A stretch of DNA of 64,000 nt from Bordetella pertussis 18323 (GTDB taxonomy: Bacteria; Pseudomonadota; Gammaproteobacteria; Burkholderiales; Burkholderiaceae_B), in NCBI RefSeq assembly GCF_000306945.1, contig NC_018518.1, positions 1,550,001 through 1,614,000 of the forward strand, given 5' to 3'. The notes beneath the pieces were generated by a model. It made no database searches. It had not been told where the DNA came from and worked only from the letters and a program-made list of their open reading frames with translations. This document shows positions 17,382 through 33,127 of the stretch, in pieces; the stretch's first letter is position 1; every line of letters begins with the position of its first letter. Position numbers and translations under genes: made by a program.

Positions 17382-17678
17382 CCGCCCATCTGTAACATCG
17401 GACTTTCGCTTGCACAGCGCCGCGATTTCCTTTGTTGCCTGGATTACGGCAGGTTTGCGACGGACTTAAGCAAAAAAAGTGAAGTTCGGAAATGTGCGGG
17501 GGAATCTGGCTGCAAAGGGCATGCTCCTGCGGGGACAGGCGCCCGTGCGGCGGGGGCGGGATGCGGCAGGCGCCCGTGTGGCGCGGATGGGATGGGGCAG
17601 GGTGCCTGTCCCCGCAGGGGGACTGGCACCGTTGGCGCAGCGCTCGGCAGGCAGGCGCCGCGCGGCCATGGCATGCGC
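17382..17678. other. Intergenic region downstream of fliA, no gene recognised
   Basis: These 297 bp lie between the rearranged IS481 and the fliA stop. No credible coding frame is seen. The stretch holds a short A-rich segment (AAGCAAAAAAAGTGAAG, 17468-17484), a half-site related to the dispersed palindrome (CGGGGACAGGCGCCC, 17530-17544) and the palindrome at 17601-17630. Whatever gene originally followed has been cut off by the IS481-mediated junction. Confidence 0.6.
17601..17630 (-). terminator. Palindromic putative terminator downstream of fliA
   Basis: GGTGCCTGTCCCC is followed 2-3 bases later by its near-perfect inverted complement (GGGGGACTGGCACC). The same arm occurs after cheZ at 29509. 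The hairpin lies about 50 bp beyond the fliA stop in the direction of fliA transcription, fitting a transcription-end role. No T-run follows it, so it could equally be a dispersed repeat. Confidence 0.6.
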
Positions 17679-26508: not shown

Positions 26509-27367
26509 GTGGCGACAGCAATGACGACGCCGGCTTTCAGCGCCGAGCGCCAGTTCGAGTTCCGCGACGCGGACTTCGCCCGGGTACGGCAGATGATCTA
26601 CGCGCGCGCCGGCATTTCGCTGGGCGCGCACAAGCGCGAAATGGTGTACAGCCGCCTGGCGCGGCGCCTGCGCGCGCTGGGGCAGCAGGAGTTCCGCGTC
26701 TACCTGGACGGGCTGGAGAACGAGCCGGCCGCGCCCGAGTGGGAAGACTTCGTCAACGCCCTGACGACCAACCTGACCGCCTTCTTTCGCGAGTCGCATC
26801 ACTTTCCCATCCTGGCCGATTTCGCGCGCCAGCGCGGCGGGCCGGTATCGGTGTGGTGCTGCGCCGCCTCGACCGGCGAAGAGCCGTACTCGATCGCCAT
26901 GACGCTGGTCGAGAGCCTGGGCGCGCGCCCAGGCCAGCCAGGTGCTGGCCACCGATATCGATACCAACTGCCTGCAGCGCGCGCGCGCGGGCGTCTATCC
27001 GTACGAGCGGGTGGCCAAGCTGGACCCGGCGCGCCTGAAGCGGTTTTTCATGCGCGGACGCGGCGCCAATGAAGGGCAGGTCAAGGTGCGCGCGGAGCTG
27101 GCCGACATGGTGCGCTTCGAGACCTTGAACCTGCTGGCGCCGCACTGGCCGATCAACGAGAAATTCGACGCGATCTTCTGCCGCAATGTCATGATTTACT
27201 TCGACAAGCCGACCCAGGCCAGGATCCTGCGGCGGTTCGTCCCCTTGCTCAAGCCGGGCGGACTGCTGTTTGCCGGGCATTCCGAGAATTTCACCTATAT
27301 CAGCCGCGACTTCCGCCTGCGCGGACAGACTGTCTATGAGCAGGCCAGCGGCGAGTTGCCAGTATGA
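26509..27367 (+). pseudogene. cheR: Chemotaxis methyltransferase CheR, frameshifted
   Basis: CheR methylates receptor glutamates using S-adenosylmethionine. The first frame (start 26509, or the ATG at 26521) shows the N-terminal helical domain and VWCCAASTGEEPYSIAM, the SAM-binding motif, then leaves the family at ESLGARP. Homology resumes in another frame as VLATDIDTNCLQRARAGVY, IFCRNVMIYFDKPTQ and GLLFAGHSENF. The switch lies in GCGCGCGC at 26921-26928; one more GC unit would restore ESLGARAQASQVLATDID. The stop overlaps the cheB ATG. A functional CheR is unlikely, so adaptation would be lost. Confidence 0.9.
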
Positions 27368-28416
27368 AGAAGATCAAGGTCTTGTGCGTGGATGATTCCG
27401 CGCTGGTGCGCGGTCTGATGACCGAGATCATCAACAGCCATCCGGACATGGAGGTGGTCGCGACCGCGCCCGATCCGCTGGTGGCGCGCGAACTGATCAA
27501 GAAGCACAACCCGGACGTGCTGACGCTGGATGTGGAAATGCCGCGCATGGACGGCCTGGATTTCCTCGAAAAGCTGATGCGGCTGCGGCCCATGCCGGTG
27601 GTGATGGTGTCGTCGCTGACCGAGCGCGGCGGCGAGATCACGCTGCGGGCGCTGGAACTGGGCGCGATCGATTTCGTGACCAAGCCCAAGCTGGGGATCC
27701 GCGACGGGTTGATCGAGTATTCCGAGGTGATCGCGGACAAGATCCGCGCCGCCTCGCGCGCGCGCCTGCGCGCGCTGGCGCCGGCGAGCCACGCGGCGCC
27801 GCTGCGCCTGCGCAGTCCGTTCGCCAGCTCCGAGAAGCTGGTGATCGTGGGCGCATCGACCGGCGGCACCGAAGCGATCCGCGAGGTGCTGCAGCCCCTG
27901 CCGGCCGACAGCCCGGCGATCCTCATCACCCAGCACATGCTGGCCGGCTTCACGCGCTCGTTCGCGCAGCGCCTGGACGCGCTGTGCGCGGTGACCGTGC
28001 GCGAAGCCAGCGACGGCGAGCGGGTGCTGCCTGGCCACGTGTACCTGGCGCCGGGCGGCGAGACGCATATGCGCCTGGGCCGCAGCGGCGCCAACTACGT
28101 GATCGGGCTGCAGGCCAGCGAGCCGGTCAACCGGCACCGCCCCTCGGTGGACGTGCTGTTCCATTCGGCCGCCGAGGCGGCCGGCGGCAATGCGATCGGG
28201 GTGATACTGACCGGCATGGGTAAGGATGGCGCGGCCGGCTTGCTGGCCATGAAACGCGCCGGCGCACGGACCATGGCGCAGGACGAGGCCAGTTGCGTGG
28301 TCTTCGGCATGCCGCGCGAGGCCATCGCGCTGGGCGCGGCCGACGAGGTCGTGCCGCTGGCCGACATCAGTGAGCGGATTCTGACGCGTCTGGGCGACCG
28401 CGGGCATCGCGTTTGA
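27364..28416 (+). CDS. cheB: Chemotaxis protein-glutamate methylesterase CheB
   Basis: This 350-residue protein combines an N-terminal receiver (D10, D11, phosphoacceptor D56 in [15 protein letters not shown] motif) with a C-terminal methylesterase. The catalytic triad residues are visible in [13 protein letters not shown] (Ser), [15 protein letters not shown] (His) and [12 protein letters not shown] (Asp). The ATG overlaps the cheR stop. The gene itself is intact, but its antagonist cheR is broken. Confidence 0.95.
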
Positions 28417-28468
28417 CGCCCCGGTCCCAACGGAGCGGGCGTCCGGACATTATTTTCTTGGAGTTGAG

Positions 28469-28858
28469 ATGGTAGATAAGGGAATGAAGATACTGGTGGT
28501 GGATGATTTCCCCACCATGCGGCGCATCATACGCAACCTGCTCAAGGAGCTGGGTTTCGAGAACGTCGACGAGGCCGAGGACGGCGCCATCGGGCTGGAG
28601 AAACTGCGCAACGGCGCCTTCCAGTTCGTGGTGTCGGACTGGAACATGCCGAACCTCGACGGCCTGGAAATGCTCAAGCAGATCCGCGCCGACGCGGCGC
28701 TGAAGTCGTTGCCGGTGCTGATGGTGACGGCCGAGGCCAAGAAGGAGAACATCGTGGCGGCGGCCCAGGCCGGCGCCAACGGCTACGTGGTCAAGCCGTT
28801 CACGGCCGCGACGCTGGAAGAGAAGCTGAACAAGATCTTCGAGAAACTCGCCGGCTGA
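28469..28858 (+). CDS. cheY: Chemotaxis response regulator CheY
   Basis: Phospho-CheY binds the flagellar switch to change rotation. The 129-residue receiver has every canonical residue at the enteric position: D12, D13, phosphoacceptor D57 ([12 protein letters not shown]), T87 and K109 (YVVKPF). A GGAG ribosome site precedes the ATG. cheZ follows after 8 bp. The gene is intact. Confidence 0.96.
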
Positions 28859-28866
28859 GGTACCGA

Positions 28867-29499
28867 ATGAATGCGACGGACACTGGCATGCAGGCAGACC
28901 CGACCGACCTGATCCAGCGGATCGCCTCGTTGACGCGCATGCTGCGCGACAGCATGCGCGAGCTCGGGCTGGACCAGGCCATCAAGGATGCCGCCGAGGC
29001 GATTCCCGATGCGCGCGACCGCCTGCGCTACGTGGCGCAGATGACCGAGCAGGCCGCCAATCGGGTATTGAACGCCACCGAGGCCGCCGGCCCCATCCAG
29101 GACGGCATGGCGCGCGGCGCCCAGGCGCTGGACGAGCGCTGGCAGCAATGGTACGACCAGCCGCTCGAGTTGCCGCAGGCGCGCGCCCTGGTGCAGGACA
29201 CGCGGGCCTTCCTGGCCGCCGTGCCGCAGCACACGCAGCAGACCCAGGCCAAGCTGATGGAAATCGTCATGGCGCAGGATTTCCAGGACCTGACCGGCCA
29301 GGTCATCATGCGCATGATGGACGTGGTGGGCGCGATCGAGCGTGAACTGCTGCAGGTGCTGCTGGACAACGTGCCGCAGGAGCGCCGCGACGAAGCCAAT
29401 TCGCTGCTCAACGGCCCGCAGGTCAACCCCGGCGGCAAGGCCGACGTCGTCACCAGCCAGGACCAGGTCGACGACCTGCTGGCCAGCCTGGGCTTCTGA
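28867..29499 (+). CDS. cheZ: CheY-P phosphatase CheZ
   Basis: The 210-residue, mostly helical protein carries the catalytic segment [18 protein letters not shown], which contains the conserved Asp and Gln that stimulate CheY-P hydrolysis. It ends in the CheY-binding peptide [13 protein letters not shown]. It is the last gene of the plus-strand chemotaxis run; a palindromic terminator begins 10 bp after its stop. The gene is intact. Confidence 0.94.
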
Positions 29500-29508
29500 G
29501 CAGGGCAG

Positions 29509-29531
29509 GGTGCCTGTCCCCGCGGGGACAG
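29509..29531. terminator. Interrupted palindromic terminator after cheZ
   Basis: GGTGCCTGTCCCCG is followed by CGGGGACAG and then breaks off at the IS110-type element. The missing GCACC is found at 30744-30748, directly beyond the other end of the element. Rejoined, the two pieces make a perfect 28-bp palindrome between convergent cheZ and the P-type ATPase gene, suited to ending transcription from both sides. Confidence 0.75.
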
Positions 29532-29546
29532 ATACCGTCTTGGCAG

Positions 29547-30572
29547 TCAACCGTTCATGGCGTAATTGGGCTGGTAGGGGATGCGGTTTTTGAGGACCCC
29601 GAAGCACAGATGCACCAGTTTTCTCATGGCCGCGCCCAGCGCGGCCTTTTTGCTTTTTCCTGTTTTGAGCAGGCGCTGGTAAAGGGCGCGGATGTGGGGG
29701 TTGTGGCGGGTCCCAACCAGGGCCGCCATGTATAACGTGGCGCGCACCTGGGAGGGGCCGGCTTTGGACAGGCGTGCGCAGCTGTTCAGACTGCTGCCGG
29801 ATTGGCGCTGCACAGGGACCACCCCGAGATAGGCGGCCAGGCTCTGGGCGGAGTCGATATGCCGATTGTGCATGACGGCCAGGATGGCGTTGCCGGCCTG
29901 AGGCCCGATGGCGGGGATGGAGTTCAGCAGCTCGCAGTCTTGCTTGAGGTCGGGGTGGTTGTCGATGTGCTGATCGATCGCCCGCTCGATTTGTTTGATC
30001 TGTTCGCGCAAGAACGCGATGGCCTTGTCGATGGAACCATCGACCAAGGGCGCCGAGGGGCTGAACTGGCTCTTCTCTTTGCGATTGAGCTCACGCAACA
30101 GATCCTTGCTCAGCGCCTCGCGTCGCGTCAACAAGGCGCGCAGTTGACGCGCATGCAAGGGCGCCGGGTGCCACAGCGCCGGGCTCAGCGTCTGTCCATA
30201 GCGAGCCAGCACGTAGCTGTCGAGCGCATCATTTTTGGAGCGCAGCGCCAAGGCCTTGGCAAAGTCCCGGGCCTGGGCGGGATTGACCAAAGAGACCCGG
30301 ACCTGGGGCAGCGCCGTGGCCGCTTGCTCGTGATACAGACCCGTAGGCTCCAGGATGGCGTGCAACTGCGCCGGCTGTGCGCCGTGTTTGGCGCACCACG
30401 CCAGCAGGGCTTGTACGCCCGCGGCGGTGTTGACCACCACCTTGGTCTTACGCTTGTCAGCCTCAGCCGTCAGCAACGTGCAATCCAGCTTGGCCTTTGA
30501 TACATCAATACCTATGAAAACATGGACTTGGCCTCCTGCAGATAACAAACTGCTGTCAGCCACTGCGCCCAC
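29547..30572 (-). CDS. IS110-family DEDD recombinase/transposase (IS1663 type)
   Basis: The predicted protein has 341 residues. The N-terminal RuvC-like DEDD domain shows FIGIDVSKAKLDCTLL (first Asp), AILEPTGLYHEQAATAL (Glu) and KNDALDSYVLARYGQ (two Asp). The C-terminal Transposase_20 domain shows LLNSIPAIGPQAGNAILAVM and RLSKAGPSQVRATLYMAALV, with Ser residues in QSGSSLNS. No ATG gives this frame: the start is GTG at 30572 or a near-cognate codon just before FIGIDVSK, where an AGGAGG lies 8 bases upstream. The enzyme would recombine DNA guided by the element's bridge RNA. Confidence 0.9.
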   Translation of the reverse strand: MGAVADSSLLSAGGQVHVFIGIDVSKAKLDCTLLTAEADKRKTKVVVNTAAGVQALLAWCAKHGAQPAQLHAILEPTGLYHEQAATALPQVRVSLVNPAQARDFAKALALRSKNDALDSYVLARYGQTLSPALWHPAPLHARQLRALLTRREALSKDLLRELNRKEKSQFSPSAPLVDGSIDKAIAFLREQIKQIERAIDQHIDNHPDLKQDCELLNSIPAIGPQAGNAILAVMHNRHIDSAQSLAAYLGVVPVQRQSGSSLNSCARLSKAGPSQVRATLYMAALVGTRHNPHIRALYQRLLKTGKSKKAALGAAMRKLVHLCFGVLKNRIPYQPNYAMNG

Positions 30573-30741
30573 TTGCCTTGTACATACAGGGTCCTCGCCC
30601 TACGATACCGTCCAGTGTCTCGCCGGCCCAGCAGTGCGCTGCCGAGCCGCTATCTGTCCCACAAAGTCCTCGCTTTGGGCACCAACTCGCGGTCATCGGC
30701 GCGCGGTGGTGATAGCTAATCACCACCGGAGGAAAGATACA
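30573..30741 (-). ncRNA. Candidate bridge RNA of the IS110-type element
   Basis: This non-coding end precedes the recombinase gene. Read on the minus strand it has a strong 5' hairpin (10-bp arms, 30704-30728) and then two stem-loops with the same apical sequence CGAGGA (complements of 30667-30672 and 30592-30597). The first is bracketed by GGTGCC (30683-30678) and GGGACAG (30660-30654), which match the top strand left of the core and the bottom strand right of the core at the occupied target. The second is bracketed by GACGGTAT (30612-30605), identical to the element's own right end, and TACAAG (30582-30577), complementary to its left end. This is the two-loop guide layout of IS110 bridge RNAs. 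Expression is not shown. Confidence 0.72.
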
Positions 30742-30754
30742 AGGCACCCCGTCA

Positions 30755-33091
30755 TCAGGACGCCTGGTGCCTGCCCGCGCGCAGCAGCCGCAAGCCGTTG
30801 GCGACCACCAGCAGGCTGGCGCCGACGTCGGCGAACACCGCCATCCACAGCGTGGCCTGGCCGGCCATCGCCAGCACCAGGAACACCGCCTTGATGCCCA
30901 GCGCCAGGACGATGTTCTGGGTCAGGATGCGGTGGGTGGCGCGCGACAGGCGCACGAACGTGCCGATCTTGCGCAGGTCGTCGTCCATCAGCGCCACGTC
31001 GGCGGTTTCGATGGCGGTGCCGGTGCCGGCCGCGCCCATGGCGAAGCCGATGTCGGCGCGCGCCAGCGCCGGCGCGTCGTTGATGCCGTCGCCCACCATG
31101 CCCACGCGCAGGGCCGGATCCAGCTTGGCCTCGACGGCGTCCAGCTTGTCCTGCGGCAGCAGGTCGCCGCGCGCCTCGTCGATGCCGGCCTGGGCGGCCA
31201 CCGCCTGGGCGGCGCGGGTGTTGTCGCCGGTCAGCATGAGGGTGCGCACGCCCAACCGGTGCAGGTCGGCCACGGCGGCGGCGCTGCTGGCCTTGAGCGT
31301 GTCGGCCACCGCGGCCAGCAGCAGGACGCGCTGCCCGTCGGCCAGGGCGATGGCGGTCTTGCCGGCCGCTTCATAGGCGTCGATGCGGGCCTCGATATCG
31401 GGCGTGCTGACGCCCAGCTCGCGCATCAGGCGGCGGTTGCCCAGCTGGAAGCGCTCGCCGCCGATCTCGCCCTGCACGCCGCGGCCGGGCAGGGCGGCGA
31501 AACCGTTCACCTCGTCCAGCGGCGCGTCCAGGGCGTGGTCGGCCTGGGCCAGCGCGCGCGACACGGGGTGGTCCGAGCGCGCCGCCAGGCTGACCGCGGC
31601 GCGCAGCGCCGGGCGCCCGCCCGCGCTGGCGTCGTGCAGCAGTTCCAGGTCGGTCTGCACCGGCTTGCCCTGGGTCAGCGTGCCGGTCTTGTCCAGCGCC
31701 AGCCAGCGCAGCTTGCGTCCTTCCTCCAGGTAGACGCCGCCCTTGATCAGGATGCCGCGCCGCGCGGCGGCGGTCAGGCCGCTGACCACGCTGACCGGGG
31801 TGGAAATCACCAGCGCGCAGGGGCAGGCGATGATCAGCAGCGCCAGCGCGCGGTACACGGAGTCGAGCCAGGCGTGGCCCAGCAGCAGCGGCGGCGCCAG
31901 CGCGACCAGCACCGCCAGCCCGACCACGGCCGGCGTGTAGATGCGCGAGAAGCGGTCGATGAAGCGCTGGGTCGGGGCGCGCGCGCCCTGGGCCTGTTCG
32001 ACCGCGTGGATGATGCGGTCCAGCGTGGTATTGCCGGCCGCCGCCGTGACGCGGTAGTCGAACGACCCGGAGGCATTGACGGTGCCGGCGTAGACGTCGT
32101 CGTCCGGGCCTTTTTCCACCGGCAGGCTTTCGCCGGTGATGGGCGACTGGTCGATCGCGGACTGGCCTTCGCTGATGGTGCCGTCGGCGGCGATGCGCTC
32201 GCCCGGGCGCACCCGCACCAGGTCGCCCGGGCGCAGTCGCGCCGCCGGCACCTCGGCCCACGAGCCGTCCGGCTGGCGCGCGGTGGCGGTCTGCGGCGCC
32301 AGGTCCAGCAGGCCGCGCACCGCATGGCGGGCGCGGTCCAGGGCGCGGGCCTCGATCAGCTCGGCCACGTTGAACAGGAACATCACCATGGCCGCTTCCG
32401 GCCATTGGCCGATGAGCATCGCGCCGGTCACGGCGATGCTCATCAGGGCATTGATGTTGAGGTTGCCGTTGCGCACCGCGATCCAGCCCTTGCGGTAGGT
32501 CGACAGCCCGCAGGCCAGGATGGCCGCCAGCGCCAGGGCGGCGGCGACATAGACCGGCTGGCCGGTGAAGTGGGCGAGCTCGGACAGCGCCGCCAGCACC
32601 CCGCCGGCGGCCAGCAGGCGCCAGCCGCGCGAAGGCGCGGCCGCGCCGGCTGGGGTCGCCGGGGCGTCGCCGGCCAGGGGCTCGGGCGTCATGCCCAGCG
32701 AGCGGATCGCCGCGTCGATGCGATCGAGCGCGCCGTCGGCATGCAGCACGATCAGTACGCGCTGCATCAGGTTGAAGTCGAGCTCGTGCACCTCGGGCAG
32801 GCTGGCCAGCTTCTTGCGGATCAGCGTTTCCTCGGTGGGGCAGTCCATCTGCCCGATGCGCACCCGCGTGACCTGCTGGCCCGGACCGGGCTGCCAGGCC
32901 GGGGCGGCCGCGGGCGCGGCCGGCTGGCCGTGCCCATGGCCGCAGCAGGCCGGGATGCCATGGTCGTGGGCATGGTCGTGCCCGGCATGGTCATGGCCTG
33001 CGTGGTCGTGGCCTGCGTGGTCGTGGCCGTGGGCGTCCGTGCGTTGGCCAGATGGCATATCGAGGGCAAGGTCGCGGGTCGTGGAGGGCAT
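30755..33091 (-). CDS. cadA: Heavy-metal (Cd/Zn/Pb) translocating P-type ATPase
   Basis: This inner-membrane exporter of divalent soft metals has 778 residues from the ATG at 33091, which has AAGGACG upstream; an in-frame ATG 12 codons earlier lacks support. The N-terminus has four GHDHA repeats plus CCGHGHG, then an HMA-like domain with GQMDCPTEE. The P1B motifs are TGES, CPC in LIIACPCALVIS, DKTGT, the HP motif ARSDHPVSRALA and GDGINDAP. The CPC type with a divergent CadR-like regulator points to Cd/Zn/Pb rather than copper. The gene ends beside the interrupted palindrome, convergent with cheZ. Confidence 0.93.
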   Translation of the reverse strand: MPSTTRDLALDMPSGQRTDAHGHDHAGHDHAGHDHAGHDHAHDHGIPACCGHGHGQPAAPAAAPAWQPGPGQQVTRVRIGQMDCPTEETLIRKKLASLPEVHELDFNLMQRVLIVLHADGALDRIDAAIRSLGMTPEPLAGDAPATPAGAAAPSRGWRLLAAGGVLAALSELAHFTGQPVYVAAALALAAILACGLSTYRKGWIAVRNGNLNINALMSIAVTGAMLIGQWPEAAMVMFLFNVAELIEARALDRARHAVRGLLDLAPQTATARQPDGSWAEVPAARLRPGDLVRVRPGERIAADGTISEGQSAIDQSPITGESLPVEKGPDDDVYAGTVNASGSFDYRVTAAAGNTTLDRIIHAVEQAQGARAPTQRFIDRFSRIYTPAVVGLAVLVALAPPLLLGHAWLDSVYRALALLIIACPCALVISTPVSVVSGLTAAARRGILIKGGVYLEEGRKLRWLALDKTGTLTQGKPVQTDLELLHDASAGGRPALRAAVSLAARSDHPVSRALAQADHALDAPLDEVNGFAALPGRGVQGEIGGERFQLGNRRLMRELGVSTPDIEARIDAYEAAGKTAIALADGQRVLLLAAVADTLKASSAAAVADLHRLGVRTLMLTGDNTRAAQAVAAQAGIDEARGDLLPQDKLDAVEAKLDPALRVGMVGDGINDAPALARADIGFAMGAAGTGTAIETADVALMDDDLRKIGTFVRLSRATHRILTQNIVLALGIKAVFLVLAMAGQATLWMAVFADVGASLLVVANGLRLLRAGRHQAS
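32969..33028 (-). repeat. Four 15-bp repeats encoding GHDHA in the ATPase N-terminus
   Basis: Four consecutive 15-bp units (complement of TGCGTGGTCGTGGCC, with small changes) encode residues 22-41, GHDHA four times. The array is in-frame, so a gain or loss of units would change the number of metal-binding histidines without breaking the gene. Confidence 0.85.
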
Positions 33092-33127
33092 CTGGTACGT
33101 CCTTTCTGGATGTTGGACGCATTTCAC

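Follow-up and report, generated by a model that had tools for sequence, protein, structure and literature searches.

The left non-coding end of an IS110-group insertion element of Bordetella pertussis 18323 very probably encodes an IS621-type bridge RNA that would guide the insertion of the element by the mechanism proposed below. The element lies in the window, that is the whole stretch of 64,000 nucleotides that was analysed, which belongs to a genome made of a single contig of 4.04 Mb. RNA-guided insertion of this kind is known, since bridge RNAs, also named seekRNAs, were described in 2024 (PMC11208160, PMC11208158, PMC11187229), and it is well supported that the element, IS1663, is a clear new example and an instance of the published system.

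The IS1663 element and its recombinase

The element and its reading frame were placed as follows.
29530 to 30743, minus strand: IS1663 element of the IS110 group, with CT cores at 30743-30742 and 29531-29530, 1214 bases from core to core
29547 to 30572, minus strand: open reading frame of the IS110-group DEDD recombinase, longest reading from a GTG, 341 amino acids

The recombinase frame matched PF01548 and PF02371 of Pfam and NF033542 of NCBIfam ('IS110 family RNA-guided transposase'), and it carries the DEDD RuvC-like and Transposase_20 parts with the conserved serine that mark IS621-type elements. Its nearest solved relatives by sequence are ISCro4 (PDB 9t56; 192 bits over residues 18-335) and IS621 (8wt6; E = 2.2e-53). 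The motifs GID, LEPT, SKNDALD and SGSSLN, at residues 21, 74, 112 and 258, align with the DEDD and serine motifs of ISCro4; in IS621 the catalytic residues are D11, E60, D102, D105 and S241 (PMC11208158). A non-coding stretch of 169 bases, upstream of the recombinase and hence at the left end, separates the core from GTG 30572.

The genome holds 18 full copies of equal length and one partial copy, and 17 IS1663 copies have been published. The name IS1663 was given in the original prediction. A leucine/glutamine difference occurs at residue 319 of the 341-residue reading, which corresponds to the published 316 Leu/Gln variant of IS1663 if the annotated start lies three codons later. The variant and the copy number together support, indirectly, the identity of the element with the published IS1663. 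Two further pieces look, from their sequence, like relics of former copies: a 444-base left-end fragment spanning the bridge RNA region (L019, C1:2553774-2554217) and an orphan 27-base right-end match with CTGTCCCC still following it (L020, C1:3825952-3825978). In the window the element has as neighbours a chemotaxis cluster (cheB/cheY/cheZ-like; 30755-33127, minus strand) and a P-type metal ATPase (27364-29499, plus strand), both named from the reading of their frames.

Guides and insertion sites

The original prediction had placed four guides on the minus strand of 30741-30573, each copying or complementing a flank or an end of the element. All four were found there in the order and register given, and each equals its target or end as claimed.
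30678 to 30683, minus strand: predicted left target guide GGTGCC, equal to the top strand of the left target plus the core C
30654 to 30660, minus strand: predicted right target guide GGGACAG, equal to the bottom strand of the core and right target
30604 to 30612, minus strand: predicted left donor guide GACGGTATC, equal to the right end of the element plus the core C
30577 to 30582, minus strand: predicted right donor guide TACAAG, equal to the complement of the core and left end
30744 to 30748, minus strand: left target half GGTGC, in the flank of the element
29509 to 29529, minus strand: right target half GTCCCC, then GGGGACAGGCACC, the mirror arm of the palindrome that is interrupted, in the flank of the element

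When the 169 bases were shuffled with their dinucleotides preserved and all positions were searched, the donor-pair score of 15 was reached by 0 of 20,000 shuffles and the target-pair score of 13 by 26 of 20,000. The left end is identical in 13 of the 18 copies, and the remaining five carry one common change, outside the guides.

Copies inserted at sites unrelated to GGTGC-CT-GTCCCC were looked for, and all 18 full copies of the genome lie at related sites, of the form GG[T/A]G[C/T]-CT-GTCCCC, with 5-6 of 6 bases matching the left guide and 7 of 7 the right guide; two of these copies (L008 and L018) have a common left flank. In 13 of the 18 a mirror arm in the right flank matches the left arm at 10-12 of 12 bases, compared with 55 of 9000 shuffled flanks, so that the element interrupts a palindrome. 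In this genome the half-site GGNGCCTGTCCCC was counted 156 times and a reversed control pattern once, both exact arms face each other in 12 of the first 30 sites listed, and each of 14 other genomes of the genus holds 0-3 occurrences. It looks like a dispersed, partly palindromic repeat of the REP-like kind. For GGTGCCTGTCCCC the count was 122 here and no more than one in any of 267 other genomes of the family. The BRE repeat of about 90 bp (PMC3110155) was considered as a name for the target repeat. Within the window, GGNGCCTGTCCCC is found at 17531-17543, 17601-17613 and 29509-29521.

Structure and covariation of the predicted RNA

The fold of the single sequence is unremarkable (z = -1.41, with 14 of 200 shuffles folding as well), and the structure becomes convincing only through covariation. 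The non-coding ends of 11 elements, at 50.6-100% protein identity, were aligned, and the alignment folds into a 5' hairpin and two stem-loops, the first target-binding and the second donor-binding.
30563 to 30728, minus strand: predicted bridge RNA region, covariance-model match over the full model length, E = 7e-36
30706 to 30726, minus strand: 5' hairpin, helix 1, seven pairs, three of them changed on both sides
30636 to 30704, minus strand: target-binding stem-loop, helices 2-4, 14 of 18 pairs changed on both sides
30570 to 30617, minus strand: donor-binding stem-loop, helices 5-6, one of eight pairs changed on both sides

Over 33 pairs, 97.5% of the cells are paired, and 18 pairs and 60 cells are changed on both sides. 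With the partner slid by 1-3 columns as a control, at most 49.9% of the cells are paired, with seven pairs and nine cells changed. In a shuffle control, 0 of 500 reached four of the five covariation measures and 3 of 500 the fifth, that of further pair types. The covariation for which the original prediction had called is thus strong, with 18 of 33 pairs changed on both sides; most of it comes from the target stem (14 of 18), the donor stem being nearly invariant (one of eight) and therefore less informative. RNAalifold predicted 39 pairs on the alignment (A2), and six were left out of the count: 25-31, 59-96, 70-85 and three within the donor loop. On a wider alignment of 17 rows it joined the opening bases of the left end (CTTGT) to the right donor guide in a helix, which was read as donor pairing and left unused.

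A covariance model was built from ten relatives, this element being excluded. Over the 64 kb it gave one strong match, at 30728-30563 on the minus strand (138.1 bits, E = 7e-36), the next having E = 0.39. The predicted RNA lies where the original prediction had put it, in 30573-30741, with the difference that it extends slightly past 30573. Applied to 12 more distant relatives, the same model recovered 11 of the left ends at E <= 0.0055 and missed that of L078; six repeat-site loci taken as background gave no match. A search of Rfam over 29400-30900, with E up to 1, gave no match for the predicted bridge RNA; a hit to mir-149 (26.9 bits, for a gathering score of 79), on the opposite strand inside the reading frame, was put down to chance.

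The same apical sequence CGAGGA had been noted in both stem-loops. It does cap both loops here (AAAG-CGAGGA-CTTT and GGG-CGAGGA-CCC), but relatives do not keep it, having for example CGTGGA with CCAGGA, or CCTGGA with CATAGTGA, so that it is probably no functional repeat.

Donor guides, handshake bases and putative junction promoter

Donor guides are the more conserved ones in IS621 and its orthologues (PMC11208160), and they are likewise more conserved than the target guides among the elements compared here. They nevertheless covary with the ends of the elements. L102 has GATGGTATC in guide and right end alike, and L100 has the left end CTTATA with the guide TATAAG. Six elements share the left end CTCGTAT; the guide is TACGAG in four of them and CACGAG in one, and one differs. 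The left donor guide mismatches the core-adjacent base in 13 of 20 elements, this one not among them. In those 13 (L024-L081), the mismatched base is the one with which the handshake position of the target loop can pair after strand exchange.

Handshake guides, as defined in PMC11208158, and the two boxes of a putative junction promoter were located as follows.
30652 to 30653, minus strand: target-loop handshake bases AT; the right end finishes in AT, to which they are complementary
30575 to 30576, minus strand: donor-loop handshake bases GC; the left target finishes in GC, to which they are complementary
29545 to 29550, minus strand: -35-like box TTGACT of the right end, in the circle 17 bases before TATCTT
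30734 to 30739, minus strand: -10-like box TATCTT of the left end, part of the putative junction promoter

In all 20 elements the core-proximal handshake base of the target loop pairs with the donor; it is changed on both sides in L078, and in L102 and L080 its position was chosen among candidates. The corresponding base of the donor loop finds its partner in the target in 18 of the 20, being changed on both sides in L104 and failing in L079 and L080. Since the donor-loop base is nearly constant, only L104, which fits, and L079 and L080, which do not, are informative. The handshake bases of L074, L078 and L104 were read by eye. The second handshake base of the donor loop pairs in 4 of 20 elements, including this one.

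In 18 of 20 elements, all but L102 and L103, a -35-like box precedes the core by 19 bases (by 20 in L105). The junction promoters have 8-10 of 12 consensus bases, whereas shuffled junctions average 6.3 and 1.35% of them reach 9. On this sequence evidence, a sigma70-like promoter would form across the circle junction, as reported for IS621.

Relatives with other targets

Recombinase matches at E <= 1e-60 were found in six of 268 genomes of the family, this genome included, and the other five hold relatives of about 72-74% identity. Another near-palindrome, GGTGTCTGACACC, reaches 20 or more copies in 15 of the 268 genomes (G002, G003, G015, G023, G028, G033, G038, G040, G084, G093-G096, G098 and G099), with 31-618 copies in each of these; one more genome has 10, the rest have at most two, and the distribution is patchy within genera. 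Each of the five genomes with a 72-74% relative belongs to these 15. Five random draws from 267 genomes would give such an overlap with a chance, worked by hand, of about three in ten million, a figure that is only a guide because of the relatedness among genomes (the 15 belong to three genera and the carriers to two). As 10 of the 15 have GGTGTCTGACACC without a recombinase match at E <= 1e-60, the repeat is independent of the recombinase.

These relatives have the RNA frame in common with our element and differ from it in the target letters. The target loop of the G095 element has CTGGCACC and CTCCGCAG, and this element (L029) is inserted at CTGGCAC-CT-GCGGAG, a match of 16 out of 16. The copies of G093 and G098 match well on the left and over only 2-5 contiguous bases on the right. 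In the single copy of G015 (L026) the central base of the left guide is changed along with the target, so that what the guide reads is the other strand of the same near-palindrome; the right flank of this copy is without a match. The left flank of the G002 copy (L027) matches the guide over the last bases only, and its right end is absent from the data. One of the six G093 copies (L040, G093:C1:4998995-4999966) has a right flank that matches neither guide nor repeat, and may perhaps be a rearranged site.

Correspondence between guides and targets was tested over 20 elements at 39.6-100% identity, this one included. The tblastn search gave 75 rows, 26 of which came from our genome and are represented by L003. 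Of the other 49, 30 entered the flank comparison, and 19 were left out as fragments, contig-end cuts, rows with no right end or more distant full-length elements (L027, L075, L084-L098, L100 and L107). From the 31 rows compared, 20 were used, after removal of copies of the same element (L023, L033, L030, L034, L036, L038, L040 and L031), of L077 and L083, whose left end is ambiguous, and of L082, which is without the left-end motif. G093 is represented by L024, the left flank of which is without the extra C of four of the six G093 copies. A search of plasmids gave 1147 records with matches, all below 60% identity, and in a related-locus search of genome contigs 33 stretches matched and no relative was confirmed.

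With a free search over each RNA, the true pairings summed to 262, a sum reached by 0 of 5000 permutations, which averaged 222.8 and went up to 241. An element's own target ranked first in 14 of 20 cases, four of them tied; the exceptions are L073, L101, L105, L076, L079 and L080. Because several of the best pairings fell outside the expected loop positions (for example in L024, L025, L103, L079 and L080), the test was repeated with a fixed position for the right guide and a narrow range of positions for the left one. The sum was then 254, against a permuted mean of 178.0 and maximum of 222 (0 of 5000), and the own target was best or tied in 14 of 20. Taken alone, the left guide gave 136 (mean 95.9, maximum 114) and the right guide 118 (mean 82.4, maximum 107), again with 0 of 5000 in each case. 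Among the 14 closer elements the left guide alone was best or tied in 13, the right guide alone in six. Over the 20 elements the right guides span from two to eight contiguous bases including AG, and they are weak in seven: two contiguous bases in L024, L025 and L026, and four in L073, L102, L103 and L105. The left guide is poor at the fixed positions (4-5 of 8) in L076, L078, L079 and L080. These permutations ignore relatedness, and clades have guides and targets in common. Sequence comparison among the relatives thus indicates that target guides covary with insertion sites, strongly for the left guide and unevenly for the right one.

Overlap with the recombinase start and alternative readings

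In the region 30572-30498 on the minus strand, the start used by close relatives (L029, L024, L025 and L026), a ribosome site with an ATG, is out of frame here with the main reading frame, and the 18 full copies do not differ from one another around the start. From GTG 30572, inside the donor stem of the predicted bridge RNA, the main frame is open, and GTG 30563, which sits at the edge of the covariance-model match, fits the published residue numbering. The conserved stretch could be read as a structured 5' leader controlling how the recombinase is translated, its likeness to the target and the ends being incidental or left from a past exchange of sequence. It stands directly upstream of the frame, with GTG 30572 inside its 3' part and GTG 30563 at its edge, and small RNAs with a regulatory role are described at the IS110 member ISPpu9 (PMC11208160). 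A leader, however, need not change its loops in step with the insertion site, as the loops do here in both permutation tests, nor both donor arms in step with the ends, and we regard it as very improbable in place of a guide, although it may have a regulatory side role. Choice of the target by the protein or by the shape of the DNA palindrome (hairpin recognition), with RNA pairing secondary, would account for the many targets that are palindrome arms, but is hardly credible given that the mirror arm is poor (7-8 of 12) in L004, L014, L015, L017 and L018, five of the 18 copies, which nonetheless match the right guide in full, and that the loop letters match in relatives with different targets also.

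Comparison with known systems and proposed mechanism

The predicted bridge RNA agrees with the IS621-type layout recognised in the original prediction in its left-end location, its 5' hairpin, the target loop preceding the donor loop, the CT core, the DEDD/serine recombinase, the junction promoter and the core-proximal handshake. Its four guides pair with left and right target and donor as in IS621, with the difference that the left guides of IS1663 include only the first core base. The right target guide has seven bases including the core, compared with 4 bp in IS621 (PMC11208160), the target and donor letters differ, and the recombinase is clearly homologous but diverged. The comparison with ISCro4 (9t56), the closest solved protein by sequence, covered the recombinase. 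The IS110 seekRNA (PMC11187229) is taken here as the same system under another name. In the IS1111 group the guide RNA lies downstream of the recombinase, whereas the covariance match here is upstream, at the left end.

A bridge RNA has been predicted in 85.7% of the IS110 elements of ISfinder (PMC11208160). Among the papers found to mention IS1663, only PMC11187229 was recognised, by its title, as dealing with guide RNAs. Its site pipeline holds more than 7000 unique IS1663 insertion events; a guide RNA of IS1663 was not found in the text portions of that paper and may be listed in supplementary tables. An 'IS1663' with six copies is described for Bordetella petrii (PMC2572626), and the G093 elements, with six matches, are probably these. 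They have the same RNA architecture as our element, but with 72.5% protein identity, different target guides and a different target repeat they are not the same programmed element.

By analogy with IS621, we propose that the element would excise as a circle in which the right end is joined to the left end around one CT. The junction would build the sigma70-like promoter, with TTGACT of the right end, 17 bases and TATCTT of the left end, and an RNA of about 165-180 bases would be transcribed from the left end, carrying in order the 5' hairpin, the target-binding loop and the donor-binding loop. The anatomy and pairing compared above, the covariation and the target sites suggest that the target loop would pair with one arm of the dispersed palindromic host repeat (GGTGC-CT-GTCCCC); the partner of the donor loop would be the circle junction (GACGGTAT-CT-TGTA). 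The DEDD/serine recombinase would hold both in one complex and the strands would be exchanged at the CT cores, as in IS621, giving an insertion without target duplication beyond the core.

It is conceivable, and we offer it tentatively, that each IS1663-type element tracks the palindromic repeats private to its host. The bridge RNAs of neighbouring species would have been reset to whichever repeat is abundant (GGTGCCTGTCCCC here, GGTGTCTGACACC elsewhere and once its opposite strand), the handshake bases could change along with them, and translation of the recombinase would have to begin here at an unusual start, one overlapping with the bridge RNA.

For a multicopy element of a human pathogen, the analysis gives a worked and checkable predicted bridge RNA, which would explain why the copies sit in one repeat. 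From 72-74% protein identity onwards, the relatives form a natural record of guide reprogramming and of changes in donor guides and handshake bases, a record that may help in understanding the evolution of target choice. A further suggestion is that the 'IS1663' copies of different Bordetella species aim at different sequences.
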